64,000 bases of DNA, from the NCBI RefSeq assembly GCF_016907495.1, contig NZ_JAFBCC010000001.1:3224001-3288000 (forward strand), given 5' to 3'. Below the pieces are notes generated by a model, which worked only from the letters and a program-made list of their open reading frames with translations, did not search any database and was not told where the DNA came from. Shown one piece after another: positions 17,499-25,131 of this stretch. Every line of letters begins with the position of its first letter. The stretch's first letter is position 1. The stretch is from Arthrobacter tumbae (GTDB taxonomy: Bacteria > Actinomycetota > Actinomycetes > Actinomycetales > Micrococcaceae). A program made the position numbers and the translations under genes.

Positions 17499-18491
17499 TC
17501 AGCCCAGGAAGCCGGGCGCGATCAGCAGGGCTGTCGGGACGGTCAGCAGCAGTGCCGATGTGGCGAGGGCCGCGAAAGTCTGGGCGGGGGTGAGCGGCAC
17601 CTGCGGCTCAAGCAGGCGGCGCAGCCGGTGAACCGTTGAGAGGGAGGCATCATCCTGCTCGGTATCCTGCCCTGCTGCGGCATCAGACCATGCCTGATCC
17701 GGGGTGACACCCGAGCGTCCCTGTGAAGCCGACGGACCGTGCGAGCCGGTCGCCACAATGGCGATTGCTCCGACAAGGGTCTCCTGGTCCACTTCCTTGA
17801 CAGCCTCATCGTCCGCGAGCATCTCGATCAGCTCGTTGACCGCCCGCTGGGCCAGGCGCGACGTCGGAAGCCAGGGCAGCGCCGAACGCCAAGCCGCGAA
17901 GGCCCAGAGCAGAAGGTGATGCCGCTGGCTCAGGTGAGCACGCTCATGCACCAAAACCGCCCGCAGTTCCTCCTCCGAGAGCAGCCCCATCAGGCCGTCC
18001 GAGAGGACCGTCACGGAGCGGGCACCGCCGGGCAGACAATAGGCCACGGGTGCCGGGTGCTTGATCACGAGCGTGGATGGGTTAGTGTGCGAGGGCGAAC
18101 TCAACAGGTTGAGCAGGTTCCGGTGCCGTCGTCGTTGCCCCTTGATCCGCGCATAGGTGATCAGCAGGGTGAACACGAGGTGGGCGGTCAGGAGGCTCGC
18201 GGCGCTGAGCGCAAAGACGTGGACCAGGCCGAGAGTGTCCGCCGGGCGGTTGTTGACCAGAATATCCCAGAGGCCGCGCAGCGCTTCGGGCAGATTGCCT
18301 CCCAGCGGTTCCAGCCCCCACACCAGCATGGCGCCGATCATCGAGAGACCCCCGGCGAGGGCTATTGCCTGCCACAGGATCATCGCCGTAAACGGCGAAC
18401 GCGAGGGCCACTGTGCGCGGGAAAGTGCGATGGGCGCAGGCCAGGCCAGAACCACGGCAAGCGCAGCCAGGAAGTGTGAGGCCCAGAACAT
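17499..18491 (-). CDS. M56-family membrane metalloprotease (BlaR1-like, no sensor domain)
   Basis: The 330-residue integral membrane protein has about three N-terminal hydrophobic helices (residues 4-22, 36-60, 90-113), a cytoplasmic zinc-protease domain with His182-Glu183-x-x-His186 (VLVHERAHL) and the third zinc ligand in NELIEMLADDEA, and a C-terminal helix (about 300-328). It matches the M56 family of BlaR1/MecR1 but ends without the extracellular penicillin-binding domain. Its signal is therefore unlikely to be beta-lactam acylation of that domain. It lies 6 nt downstream of the BlaI-like repressor gene, so the two form an operon. By analogy it would trigger cleavage or release of the repressor. 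Confidence 0.88.
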   Translation of the reverse strand: MFWASHFLAALAVVLAWPAPIALSRAQWPSRSPFTAMILWQAIALAGGLSMIGAMLVWGLEPLGGNLPEALRGLWDILVNNRPADTLGLVHVFALSAASLLTAHLVFTLLITYARIKGQRRRHRNLLNLLSSPSHTNPSTLVIKHPAPVAYCLPGGARSVTVLSDGLMGLLSEEELRAVLVHERAHLSQRHHLLLWAFAAWRSALPWLPTSRLAQRAVNELIEMLADDEAVKEVDQETLVGAIAIVATGSHGPSASQGRSGVTPDQAWSDAAAGQDTEQDDASLSTVHRLRRLLEPQVPLTPAQTFAALATSALLLTVPTALLIAPGFLG

Positions 18492-18497
18492 GGCCGG

Positions 18498-18869
18498 TTA
18501 GTTGCTGTCCAGAAGCCGCCGGAGCGTGCGGGCCTCGCTCTCAGAGACACTGCCGATGAAGCGTGCGAGGACGGCCTCGCGATCGGGAGCGGTTACCAGT
18601 ACTTCGTGCATGAGTTCAGCGGTGTGGTCTTCACGGCTGGTTACTGCGCGGTAGCGGTGCGGACGGGTGTCCCGTTCACGCTCGACCAGGCCCTTCTTCT
18701 CAAGCCGGGACAGGACGGTCAACACTGTGGTGACCGCGAGTTCCTTGCCTTGCGCCGTACCTTCCGGGGCGAGTGCCAATGCATCACGAAGGGTGTTCGC
18801 GGTCATGGCCTCCTGGGTGCCCCACAGCAGGTCCATCACTGTGCGTTCGAGTTCACCGAGCGTGGCCAT
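18498..18869 (-). CDS. BlaI/MecI/CopY-family transcriptional repressor
   Basis: The 123-residue winged-helix protein matches the BlaI/MecI family (LGELERTVMDLLWGTQEAMT, VLTVLSRLEKKGLVER), a DNA-binding N-terminal half with a C-terminal dimerisation half. Such repressors bind short dyads and are released when an M56 partner is activated. The M56 gene follows 6 nt later on the same strand. The upstream region shared with cydA contains three identical dyads, the likely operators. A -10 candidate for this gene (TAGATT, 18950-18945 on the minus strand) puts the first dyad over the -35 region, suggesting autoregulation. The start has AAGGAAT upstream. Confidence 0.9.
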   Translation of the reverse strand: MATLGELERTVMDLLWGTQEAMTANTLRDALALAPEGTAQGKELAVTTVLTVLSRLEKKGLVERERDTRPHRYRAVTSREDHTAELMHEVLVTAPDREAVLARFIGSVSESEARTLRRLLDSN

Positions 18870-18968
18870 TCTTATTCCTTTGTTGATTCTGATCTGCGGC
18901 TGGATGGGGAAATCGCGCGTGCAATGCCAGTTCCAGGTCCCTTTAATCTACAGCTTTTTCGCGCAAGG

Positions 18969-19041
18969 TTCTACGCCATGTAGAACTGTGCGGAGAAGTT
19001 GTTCTACGATGTGTAGAAGAAGTTTTCTACAAAACGTAGAA
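18969..19041. promoter_or_regulatory. Triple BlaI-type operator between blaI and cydA
   Basis: Three perfect dyads TTCTAC-N5-GTAGAA occupy 18969-18985, 19002-19018 and 19025-19041, with centres 33 and 23 bp apart. Only the 5-nt spacers differ (GCCAT, GATGT, AAAAC). A -10 candidate for cydA, TACGAT, lies at 19005-19010 inside the second dyad. The first dyad would cover the cydA -35 region as well as the divergent repressor promoter. The arrangement fits binding by the adjacent BlaI-family repressor, but no binding is shown by the sequence itself. Confidence 0.75.
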
Positions 19042-19081
19042 ACGGCTCTCCCATCGCCAGTGCTTGAGGAATTGAGGACCT

Positions 19082-20656
19082 GTGGAAGCACTTGAAATTG
19101 CACGCTGGCAGTTCGGTATCACCACGGTCTATCACTTCCTGATGGTGCCCCTGACGATTGGGCTTGGCCTCGTTGTCGCGGTCATGCAGACCCTCTGGTA
19201 CCGGACCGGCAAGGAACACTACCTGCGCATGACGAAGTTCTGGGGAAAGCTTTTCCTCATCAATTTCATCATGGGGGTTGCCACCGGCCTGGTGCAGGAG
19301 TTCCAGTTCGGGCTGGCATGGAGCGAGTACAGCCGGTTCGTCGGCGACGTCTTCGGTGCACCGCTTGCCATGGAAGCGCTGCTCGCGTTCTTCGTCGAAT
19401 CGACCTTCCTGGGCCTCTGGATTTTCGGTTGGCAGCGGCTGCCGAAGGTGCTGCATCTTGGAGCCCTGTGGGCCGCAGTCCTGGCATCAGTATTCTCCGC
19501 CTACTTCATCATCGTCGCGAACTCCTGGATGCAGCATCCCGTGGGCGTAGAGCTCGTGGACGGCCGCGCCCGCATGGTGGACGCCTGGGCGGTGTTCACG
19601 AACAACACGGCGCTGGTCGCCTTCACCCACACCGTCTTCGGTGCCCTCGCCGTCGCCGGCGGCTTCCTGCTCGGTATCGCCTGGTACCACCTCTGGAAGC
19701 GCCGCCATGACGGACTGGATACGGTCGACGGCGAGGGGAAAGTCCTCGTCGGCACCGAAGACTCCCGCTCCCGCGGACTGATCGACCACCAGGTGTGGCT
19801 GCGCTCAGCGCGGATCGGCGCCGTCGTCGCTCTCATTTCCTTCGCCGGAACCGCCGTGTCGGGGGACCTGCAGGCGAAGCTGATGTTCGAGCAGCAACCC
19901 ATGAAGATGGCGGCAGCGGAAGCGGCCTGCCACGACGGGACCGGCTTCTCGGTCCTCTCGGTCGGCAACCTGGGATCGCAGGACTGCGATGACATCGTTG
20001 CGGTCTTTGAGGTTCCGGGCCTGCTGTCCTTCCTCGCCAACGGCGACTTCACCACCGAGGTCAAGGGTGTGAACACGCTCCTGCCCGAGTACAAGGAGCA
20101 GTACGGACAGACCCTGCCGGATGATCCGATGTACGGCGAGCGCGCCGGAATGACCATCGACTACCTCCCGGTCATGGAAGTCACTTATTGGGGCTTCCGC
20201 ATCATGATCGGTTTCGGCGGACTCGCTGCCTTCGCTGCCCTGGTGGCCCTGTGGATCCTGCGGAAGGGGACGGTCCCGGAATCGCGCTGGCTGATGCGGC
20301 TCGCGGTGTTCGGAATCCTCGCGCCTTTCGGGGCGAACTCCGCGGGCTGGATCTTCACGGAGATGGGCCGCCAGCCGTTTGTCGTGGCTCCCAACCCTGA
20401 CCCCAGCGGTATCGACGGCGTCTTCATGTTCACGGCCGCCGCAGTGTCACCGGGGGTATCGCTCGCCGAGCTCGTCTTCTCACTCGTCGCGCTCACCCTG
20501 GTCTACGCCGTCCTGCTGGTCGTCGAAGTGAAGCTGCTCTTTACGTATGTGCGCGGCGGCGTTGCCTCCGCCATGCCTGAGCTGGCTGCGAAGCACGACG
20601 ACGACAGCTCCTCACGCGGAAAGGACGACGACGATGTGCTCGCCTTTGCCTACTGA
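19082..20656 (+). CDS. cydA: Cytochrome bd ubiquinol/menaquinol oxidase subunit I
   Basis: The 524-residue membrane subunit carries the haems of cytochrome bd, the high-affinity terminal oxidase used at low oxygen or under respiratory stress. The N-terminal haem ligand His18 (TTVYHFLMVP), the stretch FGLAWSEYSRFVGDVFGAPL, and GRQPF in the conserved loop (GRQPW in many homologues) are recognisable, with about nine membrane helices. The C-terminus is Asp/Ser-rich and hydrophilic. The start is GTG with GAGGA about 4 nt upstream. It heads a cydA-cydB-cydDC cluster behind the three dyads, so the operon is probably under the BlaI-like repressor. Confidence 0.96.
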   Translation: MEALEIARWQFGITTVYHFLMVPLTIGLGLVVAVMQTLWYRTGKEHYLRMTKFWGKLFLINFIMGVATGLVQEFQFGLAWSEYSRFVGDVFGAPLAMEALLAFFVESTFLGLWIFGWQRLPKVLHLGALWAAVLASVFSAYFIIVANSWMQHPVGVELVDGRARMVDAWAVFTNNTALVAFTHTVFGALAVAGGFLLGIAWYHLWKRRHDGLDTVDGEGKVLVGTEDSRSRGLIDHQVWLRSARIGAVVALISFAGTAVSGDLQAKLMFEQQPMKMAAAEAACHDGTGFSVLSVGNLGSQDCDDIVAVFEVPGLLSFLANGDFTTEVKGVNTLLPEYKEQYGQTLPDDPMYGERAGMTIDYLPVMEVTYWGFRIMIGFGGLAAFAALVALWILRKGTVPESRWLMRLAVFGILAPFGANSAGWIFTEMGRQPFVVAPNPDPSGIDGVFMFTAAAVSPGVSLAELVFSLVALTLVYAVLLVVEVKLLFTYVRGGVASAMPELAAKHDDDSSSRGKDDDDVLAFAY

Positions 20657-20695: not shown

Positions 20696-21714
<1,019 letters not shown>

Positions 21715-21718
<4 letters not shown>

Positions 21719-24700
21719 TCGACCGGCTGCTGGCACGCGGCCCCGGCGGCATGTCCGTCCCGGTCCGTCCCGTGTACATCCTCGGTGTCCTTGCTGCGGT
21801 CAAGGCAGCCGGCCTGGTCCTGATTGCGGAAGCGATCGCCCGCGGCATCGCGGCACTCGCCGGCGGTGCTCTACCCTCGGCGGACCTGTTGGAGCTCGGA
21901 GTGGCGGGCGCAGTGCTTCGCGCAGGCGCCGCCTGGGCCCAGCAGGGAACCGCGCAGCGCCTGGCACACGGTGTGAAGGAGCAGTTGCGGCGGGAGGCGC
22001 TCGAGCGGGTGCTTGCCGACGGCGGGACCACGAGCGGAAAGCAGGGCACGGGCGCGCTCAGCGTGCTGCTCACCCGCGGGTTGGACGGCCTCGACAAGTA
22101 CCACACGCAGTACCTTCCGGCCCTGATCACCTGCGCGGTGGTTCCCCTCATGGTCGGCGCGCGCATCCTGGCTGCGGACTGGGTGAGCGCCGTCGTGATT
22201 GTCGTGACCATCCCGCTGATCCCGGTCTTCATGGTGCTGATCGGCTGGCACACGCAGGACAGGACAGCTGAGGCGAGGGCGTCGCTCGACCGGCTCTCGG
22301 ACCACCTGCTGGAACTGGCGAAAGGGCTGCCGGCACTCGTTGGCCTTGGCAGGGCCAGTGCCCAGACGCGTGCACTCCAGGACATCGGCGCCGGCTACTC
22401 CCGCCGCACCATGGAGACCCTGCGCATCGCTTTCCTGTCTTCCCTGGCGCTCGAACTGATCAGCACGATTTCGGTGGCGGTCGTGGCCGTCTTCGTGGGC
22501 GTGCGGCTGATCCATGGCGATGTGGGACTCGAAGTGGGTTTGCTCGCCCTGATCCTCGCGCCGGAGTGCTATCTGCCGTTGCGGGACCTGGGCGCCGCGC
22601 ACCATGCAAGCGATGACGGACTGGAGGCCGGACGGGCTGTCCGTGCCATCATCGATGCGCCACGTACTCCCGCTGCTGTGCCGGCCAGCCGCCCGAAAGA
22701 CGACGACGACGACGACACTGACGACGACGCGGACGACGCCGCTGCCGGCGCCGAACAGCTCACCCTGCGCTTCGATCGCTCAGTGGCACCGATCGTCGAT
22801 GACCTCACCTTCACCCTGTTGCCGGGATCCATCACCGCGCTGCGGGGACCCAGCGGTTCCGGGAAGTCAACGCTGATGGGCCTGCTGGCAGGAGTTCCCC
22901 AGCCCGGCCTGCTGGTTGATGGCGCGGTCAGGCCGCTCAGCGGTCAGCTCGGATGGGTTCCGCAACATCCCGAGACCCTGCTGGACACCGTTCGGGAGGA
23001 ACTCGCCTTCTATGCAGAATCGCCACTGACCGACCAGGCACTTCTCGGGCTGCTTGCTGCGGTGGACGGCACCCGGTTGCTGGACAAGTCGACCGGTGAA
23101 TTGAGCCCCGGCGAGCTGCGCAGGGTTGCATTCGCCAGGGCCCTGCTGCGCATCGGACCCGACGGGGGAACGCTGCTGCTCGACGAACCCACTGCCCATG
23201 TGGATGAAAGCACCTCGGCGGTGATCCGCCGCACAGTGCGGAACCTGCCGCCGACGGTGACTGTTGTGCTGATTGCACACGATGACCGGACGGCCCGCCT
23301 CGCCCACCACACTGTCGACCTCGGATCCACGGGAAGCCTGCCTGACCCACGGTCCCCTGCGCGCACTCCTGATCAAGGCGGAAATGACCCCGGCCTGCGC
23401 GAAACCCCGCTACCTGCGCCCGCTCCATCCGGGTTGGCCGCGCCGATGACGAACTACGGGACGGTCCGGACTGCGCTGAACGCGCTTGCACTGGTGCGCC
23501 CCTGGTCACCCCGGTTCCTCGCGGCGCTCGCTTTCGGCACGGGCTCGTCTGCTTTCGCCGTAGCGCTCACAGCGCTGTCGGGCTGGCTGATCGTCCGCGC
23601 GTCCGAACAGCCGCCCATCCTCTACCTCCTTGCGGCCATCGTAGGGGTTCGGTTCTTCGGCATTGGACGCTCCCTGCTGCGCTATTGCGAACGGTTGTGG
23701 CTGCACGGGAGCATCCTGCAGACTGCTGACGCCGTCCGGCTGCGTCTCTGGCAGGCTCTGCTTGGCAGGGCGGAAGCCTGGCGCTCGCTGTCCCGCGGAT
23801 CGGGCGGCATCGAACGGCTCGTGGGCGACATCGACGAGCTGCGGGACACTGCCGCGCGGGCGGTCTTTCCGCCGCTTACGGCCTTACTGACCGGACTGGC
23901 CGCCATCGGGACGACCGCGCTGCTGTTGCCGGACGCGATTCCCTGGCAGATCTTCGCCGTCGGTATCGGCCTTCTGGCCGCCCCGGCCGCCGCGCTGCTG
24001 GCCGAACGGTCGGCGGGAGCAGCGGGCATGACGCTGCGGGCGGCCTCCCTCGCCCAGACCACAAGCCTTCTGCGGGCGTCGCAGGACGTCGCAGTCAACG
24101 GGCTCACTGCCCGCGCCCTTGCCCGCCTCGCACAGCTGGAATCCCGTGCCGCCCGAGGACTGCGCCGCAGCTCCTGGGCTGCCGGCATCGGGCAGGCGCT
24201 CGTCATTTCTGCCTGCGTACTGGCCGCCGTCGCCATCCTCGCCGGCTCGGCAGGGCAGAGCGCAGAGGTGGTGGCCGTCGTCGTACTCATGCAGCTTGCG
24301 CTCATTGAGCCGCTCGCGGCCGGCGTTACGGCCGTGCAGCAGTGGGCGCCGCTGGGAACCGTGACGCGCAGGCTCGACGATCACCTGGAGCCCAAGGGCG
24401 CCACCGCCGGCCCGATGCTCCGGAGAAATCTTCCGGAGCCTGCGCTCGGCGAGGACCCACCGGCGCTCGCCCTGGTCGACGCCGCCGTGGGGTACGAGCC
24501 CGGTGTCGCCGTGGTGGAGGGTGTCACCCTCGCCGTGCGGAGCGGATCCTGGACCGCACTCACCGGCGCATCGGGCAGCGGCAAGTCGACCCTCATCGGC
24601 GCACTGCTCGGATTCCTCCCACTCAACAGCGGCAGGTACCTCGCAGCTGCTGCGGCGGACGGCGGGGTGCTTCCCGCTGCCTGGTGCCCGCAGGAAGGCC

Positions 24701-25131
24701 ACCTGTTTGATTCCTCTATCCGGGCGAACCTCCTGCTTGCCTGTGCTCCGCAGGAGCCGGCCGATGATGACGAGCTATGGAGGATTCTCCACGCCGTAGG
24801 GCTGGCGGACACGGTACGGGCGCGCACCGGCGGGCTCGACACCAGAATCGGCCCGGGCGGGAACACGCTCTCCGGCGGCGAGAGGCAACGCCTCGCCGTC
24901 GCCCGCGCCCTGCTGACCCGCGCGCCGGTGCTGATCCTCGACGAGCCCACCGCCCACCTCGATGCCGACGGCGCGTCCCGTCTCCTGCGTGACCTGCGCA
25001 GGGGACTGGGGGACAGGCCGGTGCTGCTCGTCACCCACGACCGCGCGGAAGCGCTGAGCTGTGACACCGGCGTCGAACTTGCTGCCGGCAGGAAGGGCAA
25101 TCACTTAAGCTGGGAGCATGCCTACGCCTGA
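21715..25131 (+). CDS. cydDC: Fused CydD-CydC thiol/haem ABC exporter
   Basis: This 1138-residue protein contains two complete ABC half-transporters. The CydD-like half has membrane helices up to about residue 310, then Walker A GPSGSGKST, signature LSPGELRR and Walker B TLLLDEPTAH. The CydC-like half follows from about residue 580, with Walker A GASGSGKST, LSGGERQR and VLILDEPTAHLD. CydDC exports glutathione/cysteine-type thiols, or takes part in haem handling, and is needed to assemble cytochrome bd. An Asp-rich stretch (329-343) sits between the first membrane part and its ATPase. The GTG start at 21715 overlaps the cydB stop; longer upstream frames would lie inside cydB. Fusion into one chain is known in actinobacteria. 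Confidence 0.92.

Follow-up and report, generated by a model that had tools for sequence, protein, structure and literature searches.

A BlaI-type repressor beside cytochrome bd in Arthrobacter tumbae probably controls a genome-wide aerobic respiration regulon

BlaI-family genes are routinely named penicillinase repressors. How actinobacteria jointly adjust the bd and bcc-aa3 branches of respiration with the supply of heme, copper and assembly factors is only partly known. The stretch of the A. tumbae genome analysed here (the window, 64 kb, C1:3224001-3288000 of a single-contig genome of 3.70 Mb) carries a blaI-type gene divergent from a cytochrome bd operon, with three copies of one dyad between them, which raises the question of what binds these sites and how far its control extends. 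The features of the locus, in window coordinates, are:

17499-18491, minus strand: blaR-like membrane metalloprotease gene, downstream of blaI (Pfam, HEXXH)
18498-18869, minus strand: blaI-type repressor gene (Penicillinase_R, E 3.8e-22)
18870-19081: blaI-cydA intergenic region, 212 bp, holding all three dyads
18969-18985: putative operator dyad 1, TTCTAC-N5-GTAGAA, spacer GCCAT
19002-19018: putative operator dyad 2, spacer GATGT, centre 72 bp from the cydA start
19025-19041: putative operator dyad 3, spacer AAAAC, centre 49 bp from the cydA start
19082-20656, plus strand: cydA, cytochrome bd subunit I (Cyt_bd_oxida_I, E 1.3e-151; GTG start)
20696-21718, plus strand: cydB, cytochrome bd subunit II (Cyt_bd_oxida_II, E 3.3e-98)
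21715-25131, plus strand: fused cydDC, one open reading frame with CydD and CydC NCBIfam models above cut-off

The cydDC start is a chosen GTG overlapping the cydB stop, and the mechanical open reading frame runs from 21328. The preliminary description of this DNA had placed the dyad triple exactly: all three are perfect, have different spacers and lie within the 212-bp region, and the centre of dyad 1 is 108 bp away from the start of blaI and 105 bp away from that of cydA. No further copy occurred in the 64 kb at up to one or up to two mismatches, and 100 shuffles of the window gave a mean of 0.01 dyads at up to one mismatch, with none of the shuffles reaching three. The three perfect dyads are real and far above chance. 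Their position near the gene starts fits repression, though a sigma-70-type scan of both strands of 18840-19120 recognised no promoter, and the earlier statement that the dyads cover likely promoters was not borne out. Within 18870-19081 there was no CRP-type match (consensus per PMC7739888, up to two mismatches). A Rex-type consensus at up to three mismatches gave none there either. Over the whole window, 6 CRP-type and 3 Rex-type matches were counted, where shuffles gave more on average (18.8 and 8.5), and the match closest to the intergenic region was at 18475. The earlier remark that no Rex site is visible holds for this region and this consensus; control by BlaI "instead of Rex" goes beyond this result, and other regulators may also act here.

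Co-occurrence of the dyads with the BlaI pair in relatives, which the preliminary description had proposed as a check, was found in all of the 80 named blaI loci that we kept from 203 stretches: in each, a perfect dyad is found no more than 500 bp upstream of blaI, and a blaR-like homologue is present. The closest of these loci are from Arthrobacter (98% in Arthrobacter sp. Soil782). In 71 of the 80, cydA is divergent and 2-3 dyads are present; in the other 9 an acetyltransferase gene stands in place of cydA, yet 1-2 dyads are found. In two genomes (G001 and G017) cydA is relocated with two dyads and blaI retains one. Genes read as insertion-sequence genes (transposase and ATPase; L071, L077) lie beside the relocated cydA of G017, and of G001 as judged by a 513-aa gene, and an insertion sequence is a possible cause of the separation. 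Another locus (L177), on WNZI01000013.1 titled Vibrio cholerae strain 35D, has an Arthrobacter-like parE-blaR-blaI-cydAB order at 67.6% G+C, with identities of 84% for blaI and 85% for cydA; the assembly is probably mislabelled or contaminated.

Across 149 genomes of the family, 123 had at least two dyads and all 123 had a close BlaI match, which in one of them (G122) is only a fragment at a contig edge. Among the 26 genomes with no or one dyad, BlaI was missing from 18 (16 with no dyad, 2 with one), a distant homologue alone was present in 4, an in-frame TGA interrupted the gene in 2, and BlaI was intact in 2. The association of BlaI with the dyads gave a Fisher p of 1e-25, a value that ignores relatedness, the BlaI absences falling in three genera (g17, g20 and g29). 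Full-length cydA was found in 19 of the 26 low-dyad genomes. In 11 genomes without BlaI the 400 bp upstream of cydA contained no dyad at up to two mismatches (0/11), and where an intact BlaI adjoins cydA in low-dyad genomes a perfect dyad lies within 400 bp upstream (2/2). The two loci with an in-frame TGA (L389 and L390, from G081 and G125) have blaI beside cydA; the cydA dyad is perfect in one locus and has one mismatch in the other, and the loci look from their sequence as if they were mid-decay.

We then considered the geometry of the site. When spacers of 2-9 were allowed in 12 genomes, 90 half-site pairs were obtained (35 for the reversed control), and 87 of the 90 had N5. The 312 distinct perfect sites favour A/T at plus and minus 10 (0.80) and a purine as first spacer base (0.79). 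Between families, half-site and BlaI recognition helix change together: the helix is A[VTAPLI]TTV[LH] in the TTCTAC families, and AYTTVM at the loci of families f14 and f15 and one locus of f7, where the dyads read TACGAC or TACTAC with N5 unchanged. AYTTVM is also found at an f2 locus without a dyad and in Mycobacterium tuberculosis BlaI.

These results bear on the possibility that the dyads are bound by a different transcription factor, which regulates respiration and has blaI-blaR merely as one of its targets. A perfect cydA dyad persists in all four genomes of genus g26 (4/4), which have only a distant BlaI (E ~1e-10 to 1e-11), in one case (G048) of another helix type, and this counts against simple dependence on a TTCTAC-family BlaI. 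On the other hand, dyads are lost along with BlaI in three genera of the family, and the half-site varies with the BlaI recognition helix, both of which speak against a separate factor. We therefore regard this explanation as unlikely and BlaI as the likely binder of the dyads, judging from the sequence comparison. Two further genomes (G028 and G246) have blaI beside cydA with a TTCTAC-type helix but no recognisable dyad.

The dyads were next located across the A. tumbae genome, where 7 perfect copies were found against 1 for the reversed pattern. Those outside the blaI-cydA locus, in genome coordinates, are:

402165: perfect dyad before hemQ-hemH-hemC-hemD-hemB
1557351: perfect dyad before the gene of a 111-aa protein, then DUF1761
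2205748: perfect dyad before the gene of a 199-aa membrane protein, then DUF1775 and DUF4232 proteins
3514090: perfect dyad between ctaE and qcrC

One-mismatch dyads occur at eight places. The one at 2358173 lies inside cstA and was set aside as chance; the others are:

215035: one-mismatch dyad before atpI and the atp operon
814838: one-mismatch dyad before ccsX-ccdA-resB-ccsA
949354: one-mismatch dyad before a CtaG/CopD protein gene
2340327: one-mismatch dyad before sucCD
3429418: one-mismatch dyad before ctaB
3434038: one-mismatch dyad before two ABC genes and ctaA, divergent from sufR
3513296: one-mismatch dyad before ctaE

At up to two mismatches the order flips, the reversed control giving 149 matches and the forward pattern 77, so that weight is placed only on perfect and conserved one-mismatch sites; two-mismatch sites, such as the following one, prove little by themselves:

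3521919: two-mismatch dyad before ctaC

The names hemQ, ctaB, ctaA, redoxin, ResB, ccsA, ctaE, qcrC, ctaC, atpI, sucC, CtaG/CopD, DUF1761, DUF1775 and DUF4232 are backed by Pfam or NCBIfam, and the remaining gene names were read from the sequence.

All 24 genus genomes, A. tumbae included, contained 3-11 perfect dyads each (0-2 for the reversed pattern), and no perfect dyad was found in 14 genomes from other families of the order. All 53 loci with perfect dyads (75 dyads) were taken from the 12 genus genomes for which every dyad position was listed, and 46 of them precede blaI, cydA, qcrC, hemQ, hemoglobin-type or rhodopsin genes: qcrC 12, hemQ 12, cydA 12 (10 in common with blaI), blaI alone 2, flavohemoglobin 5 (one checked by Pfam), truncated-hemoglobin-like 2 (named by reading, without a Pfam match) and rhodopsin 1 (Pfam). 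The other loci precede genes for the 111-aa protein (4), the 199-aa protein (2) and an 80-aa protein (1). No dyad was flagged within a called gene, but the dyad at the 80-aa-protein locus (L105) runs into the end of the gene next to it. The hemQ dyad lies ~53 bp from the start in most loci, and the cydA dyads, where three are present, lie ~50, 74 and 106 bp from the start. The one-mismatch ctaE site is kept in 12/12 qcr loci. The atp-operon site, at up to one mismatch, is present in 15/30 genus genomes including A. tumbae, compared with 0/900 single-base-shuffled windows, and is therefore lineage-specific.

The 111-aa membrane protein (L022:4549-5331 and homologues) has no Pfam match and is followed by DUF1761 in A. 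tumbae; a perfect dyad precedes it at 4/53 genus loci, at 5/51 loci of other genera and in A. tumbae, making it a candidate for a respiration-linked protein. The rhodopsin gene (L056:4131-5015 in genome G003, PF01036) has a perfect dyad ~100 bp upstream, and a light-driven pump in that genome may be under the same control as the respiratory genes.

A similar set of neighbours was obtained from 12 genomes that represent 12 further genera within the family, in which all 51 dyad places not adjoining blaI were taken. They comprise hemQ 8, flavohemoglobin 6, the 111-aa protein 5, ccsX-type redoxin 3, gpm-ccsX 1, ABC-ctaA/sufR 3 (in one case within a sufR call that is too long), CopC-like or CtaG/CopD 7 (Pfam named one as CopC, BLAST three as CtaG/CopD, and the remainder were named by reading) and pyridoxamine-oxidase-like 3 (one by Pfam). 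One each was found for ctaB, ctaC (305 bp), sucC and a truncated-hemoglobin-like gene and, by Pfam, for SURF1, SdhC, Usp, PPK2 and VTT proteins; 6 places (L240, L263, L271, L273, L279, L287) had no recognised product or nearby start. Thus ctaA, ctaB, ccsX, sucC and CtaG/CopD, which have one-mismatch sites in A. tumbae, have perfect dyads in other genera. Comparison genomes other than the named records were annotated with a simple gene caller; some cydA and qcrC starts are approximate, and 4 of the 51 dyads (L239, L249, L271, L287) were flagged within a called frame. In an order-level sample, 11 of 22 chosen genomes had perfect dyads (f19 5/5, f6 6/7, others 0/10). Of the non-blaI places there (20 of 22 taken), BLAST identified ccsX at 2 and CtaG/CopD, flavohemoglobin and DUF1775 at 1 each, and the other 15 were unrecognised or read by eye (one CopC-like, three Usp-like).

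A narrower reading would confine BlaI to its own operon and cytochrome bd and take the dyads elsewhere as incidental. The three f14/f15 genomes agree with it: TACKAC-N5-GTMGTA matched 6 times, two per genome, and always at the blaI-cydA locus, although the count does not exceed that of the reversed control (1, 3 and 2 matches) and only the location is informative. A wider regulon for the TAC[GT]AC dyad was looked for in these genomes, and nothing beyond the cyd locus was found. The perfect dyads before qcrC and hemQ in 12/12 genus genomes each, and the repetition of the dyad before hemQ, flavohemoglobin, ccsX, ctaA, ctaB and sucC in other genera, speak against the narrower reading, which was rejected as very unlikely. 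Control of cyd by BlaI, the central proposal of the preliminary description, is thus favoured in that the dyads track blaI-blaR and cydA and are lost with BlaI, but it is too narrow given the many other targets. Cytochrome bd next to blaI appears, from these sequences, to be one target among a broad respiratory set that also takes in heme, copper, cytochrome c and nitric-oxide defence genes.

The two proteins encoded beside cydA were then compared with known families. Penicillinase_R spans residues 4-121 of the 123-residue BlaI (79.3 bits, cut-off 22.6), among solved structures M. tuberculosis BlaI 2g9w is the best match (E 2.7e-17), and MecI is matched weakly (E 0.006). The genome has this one full-length BlaI and a weak partial family match at 1694907 (24.6 bits). 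CopY/TcrY copper repressors, which belong to the same superfamily, have metal-binding cysteines; A. tumbae BlaI contains no cysteine and reaches 29.5 bits (E 7.5e-07) with the CopY_TcrY model, whose curated cut-off is 121.95. A copper-only CopY regulator was rejected because of this low score, the missing cysteines and the respiration-wide targets. The 330-aa BlaR-like protein matches Pfam Peptidase_M48 above cut-off (E 1.3e-10) and Peptidase_M56 below it (22.8 bits, cut-off 31), and has an HEXXH motif at residue 182 as well as four hydropathy peaks. It is very improbable that the pair keeps the classical role of sensing beta-lactams, with cyd as one of several envelope-stress targets. Such a role would agree with BlaI/MecI family membership and with the reports that M. 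tuberculosis BlaI represses blaC and binds the cyd and ATP synthase promoters (PMC5473688). Against it, the BlaR-like protein gave no Pfam match to a penicillin-binding sensor domain, and among those dyad neighbours that were identified no beta-lactamase or PBP2a gene was recognised.

Taken together, we consider it likely that the BlaI-type repressor encoded next to the dyads uses them as operators, through which it controls its own expression, cydAB-cydDC and a genome-wide aerobic respiration regulon. Comparison supports the site, the regulon and the dependence on BlaI; from the sequences we infer repression, proteolysis and the signal. A BlaI dimer would bind each 6-N5-6 dyad and repress, and the dyads before blaI make autoregulation of blaI-blaR likely. 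The predicted regulon would include the oxidases (cytochrome bd and bcc-aa3, through ctaE-qcrCAB and perhaps ctaC), the synthesis of heme and heme A (hemQ-hemH, ctaA, ctaB), copper delivery (CtaG/CopD, CopC, DUF1775) and cytochrome c maturation (ccsX-ccdA-resB), with flavohemoglobin in many relatives and ATP synthase in part of the genus. Given that the BlaR-like protein has no penicillin-binding domain by Pfam and that respiration, heme, copper and NO are what the targets have in common, the cue may be respiratory failure: BlaR would inactivate BlaI when respiration is impaired by blocked electron flow, NO, cyanide or a shortage of heme or copper. Such a cue is plausible in view of the strong induction of M. 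smegmatis cydA by KCN, NO and sulfide given in the available part of PMC7739888. With both oxidase branches under one repressor, the simplest view would be that total capacity and cofactor supply rise when electron flow is blocked.

Among 20 more distant blaI loci, 10 adjoin cydAB, 3 adjoin cydDC and 7 neither, and several families have blaI-blaR beside cydAB, in some with TAC[GT]AC half-sites. We lean slightly towards a history in which BlaI-BlaR began as a local bd switch and spread respiration-wide in the TTCTAC lineage, with BlaR sensing a membrane or electron-transport cue and not antibiotics, and with beta-lactam control as a separate use. A distant BlaI-BlaR group (L327, L329, L330, L335; 29-40% identity) adjoins genes read as CcdA/thioredoxin-like (one CcdA by BLAST); in this group blaI is preceded by a small gene, and there is no dyad. 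A link between BlaI pairs and respiration may be more widespread. If the proposal is true, much of the respiratory set in readily testable soil bacteria is governed by a one-component repressor paired with a membrane protease, a reason is given for the BlaI sites reported at mycobacterial cyd and atp promoters, and a concrete operator becomes available for sequence-based regulon prediction.

The staphylococcal BlaI/MecI and BlaR1/MecR1 systems resemble the A. tumbae pair in the Penicillinase_R winged helix and the membrane protease partner. Their operators are palindromic with TAC/GTA and have the core TACA-N2-TGTA, that is, one base less between TAC and GTA than the Arthrobacter TAC-N5-GTA. 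Staphylococcal BlaR1 carries a beta-lactam sensor domain, which was not found in the A. tumbae BlaR-like protein, and the two systems have different targets. In Corynebacterium glutamicum, HrrSA regulates the making of heme and the respiratory chain, with the balance between cyd and bc1-aa3 among its effects (PMC7337898), but it is a two-component system that responds to heme, unlike a one-component repressor paired with a protease. Crp1 of M. smegmatis, whose action at cydAB comes with inhibition of aa3 by KCN, NO or sulfide (PMC7739888), is an activator, and its consensus is unmatched in the A. tumbae blaI-cydA intergenic region.

The closest known system is BlaI-BlaR of M. tuberculosis (Rv1846c-Rv1845c). 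As far as the available parts of the sources go, its BlaI is said to bind the cytochrome bd and ATP synthase promoters (PMC5473688, citing Sala 2009), was examined by EMSA at Rv1303, the first atp-operon gene (PMC12565901), and has a regulon that includes atpH and sigC (PMC8265638). The statement in the preliminary description that BlaI-type proteins reach respiratory genes in M. tuberculosis had thus already been reported (PMC5473688), and respiratory control by a BlaI-type protein is not new in kind. A. tumbae likewise has sites at cyd and ATP synthase, as dyads before cydA (perfect) and atpI (one mismatch), and the M. tuberculosis BlaR also lacks an extracellular sensor domain (PMC5473688). 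The M. tuberculosis pair is unlike in its recognition helix and in its additional targets blaC, sigC and ftsQ (PMC8265638, PMC12565901). A limited search of partly available literature found no report of hemQ, qcr, ccs or flavohemoglobin as M. tuberculosis BlaI targets. As far as searched, what is new in comparison with these systems is the Arthrobacter-type operator, the extent of its regulon, its loss together with BlaI, and the differing operator of other families.
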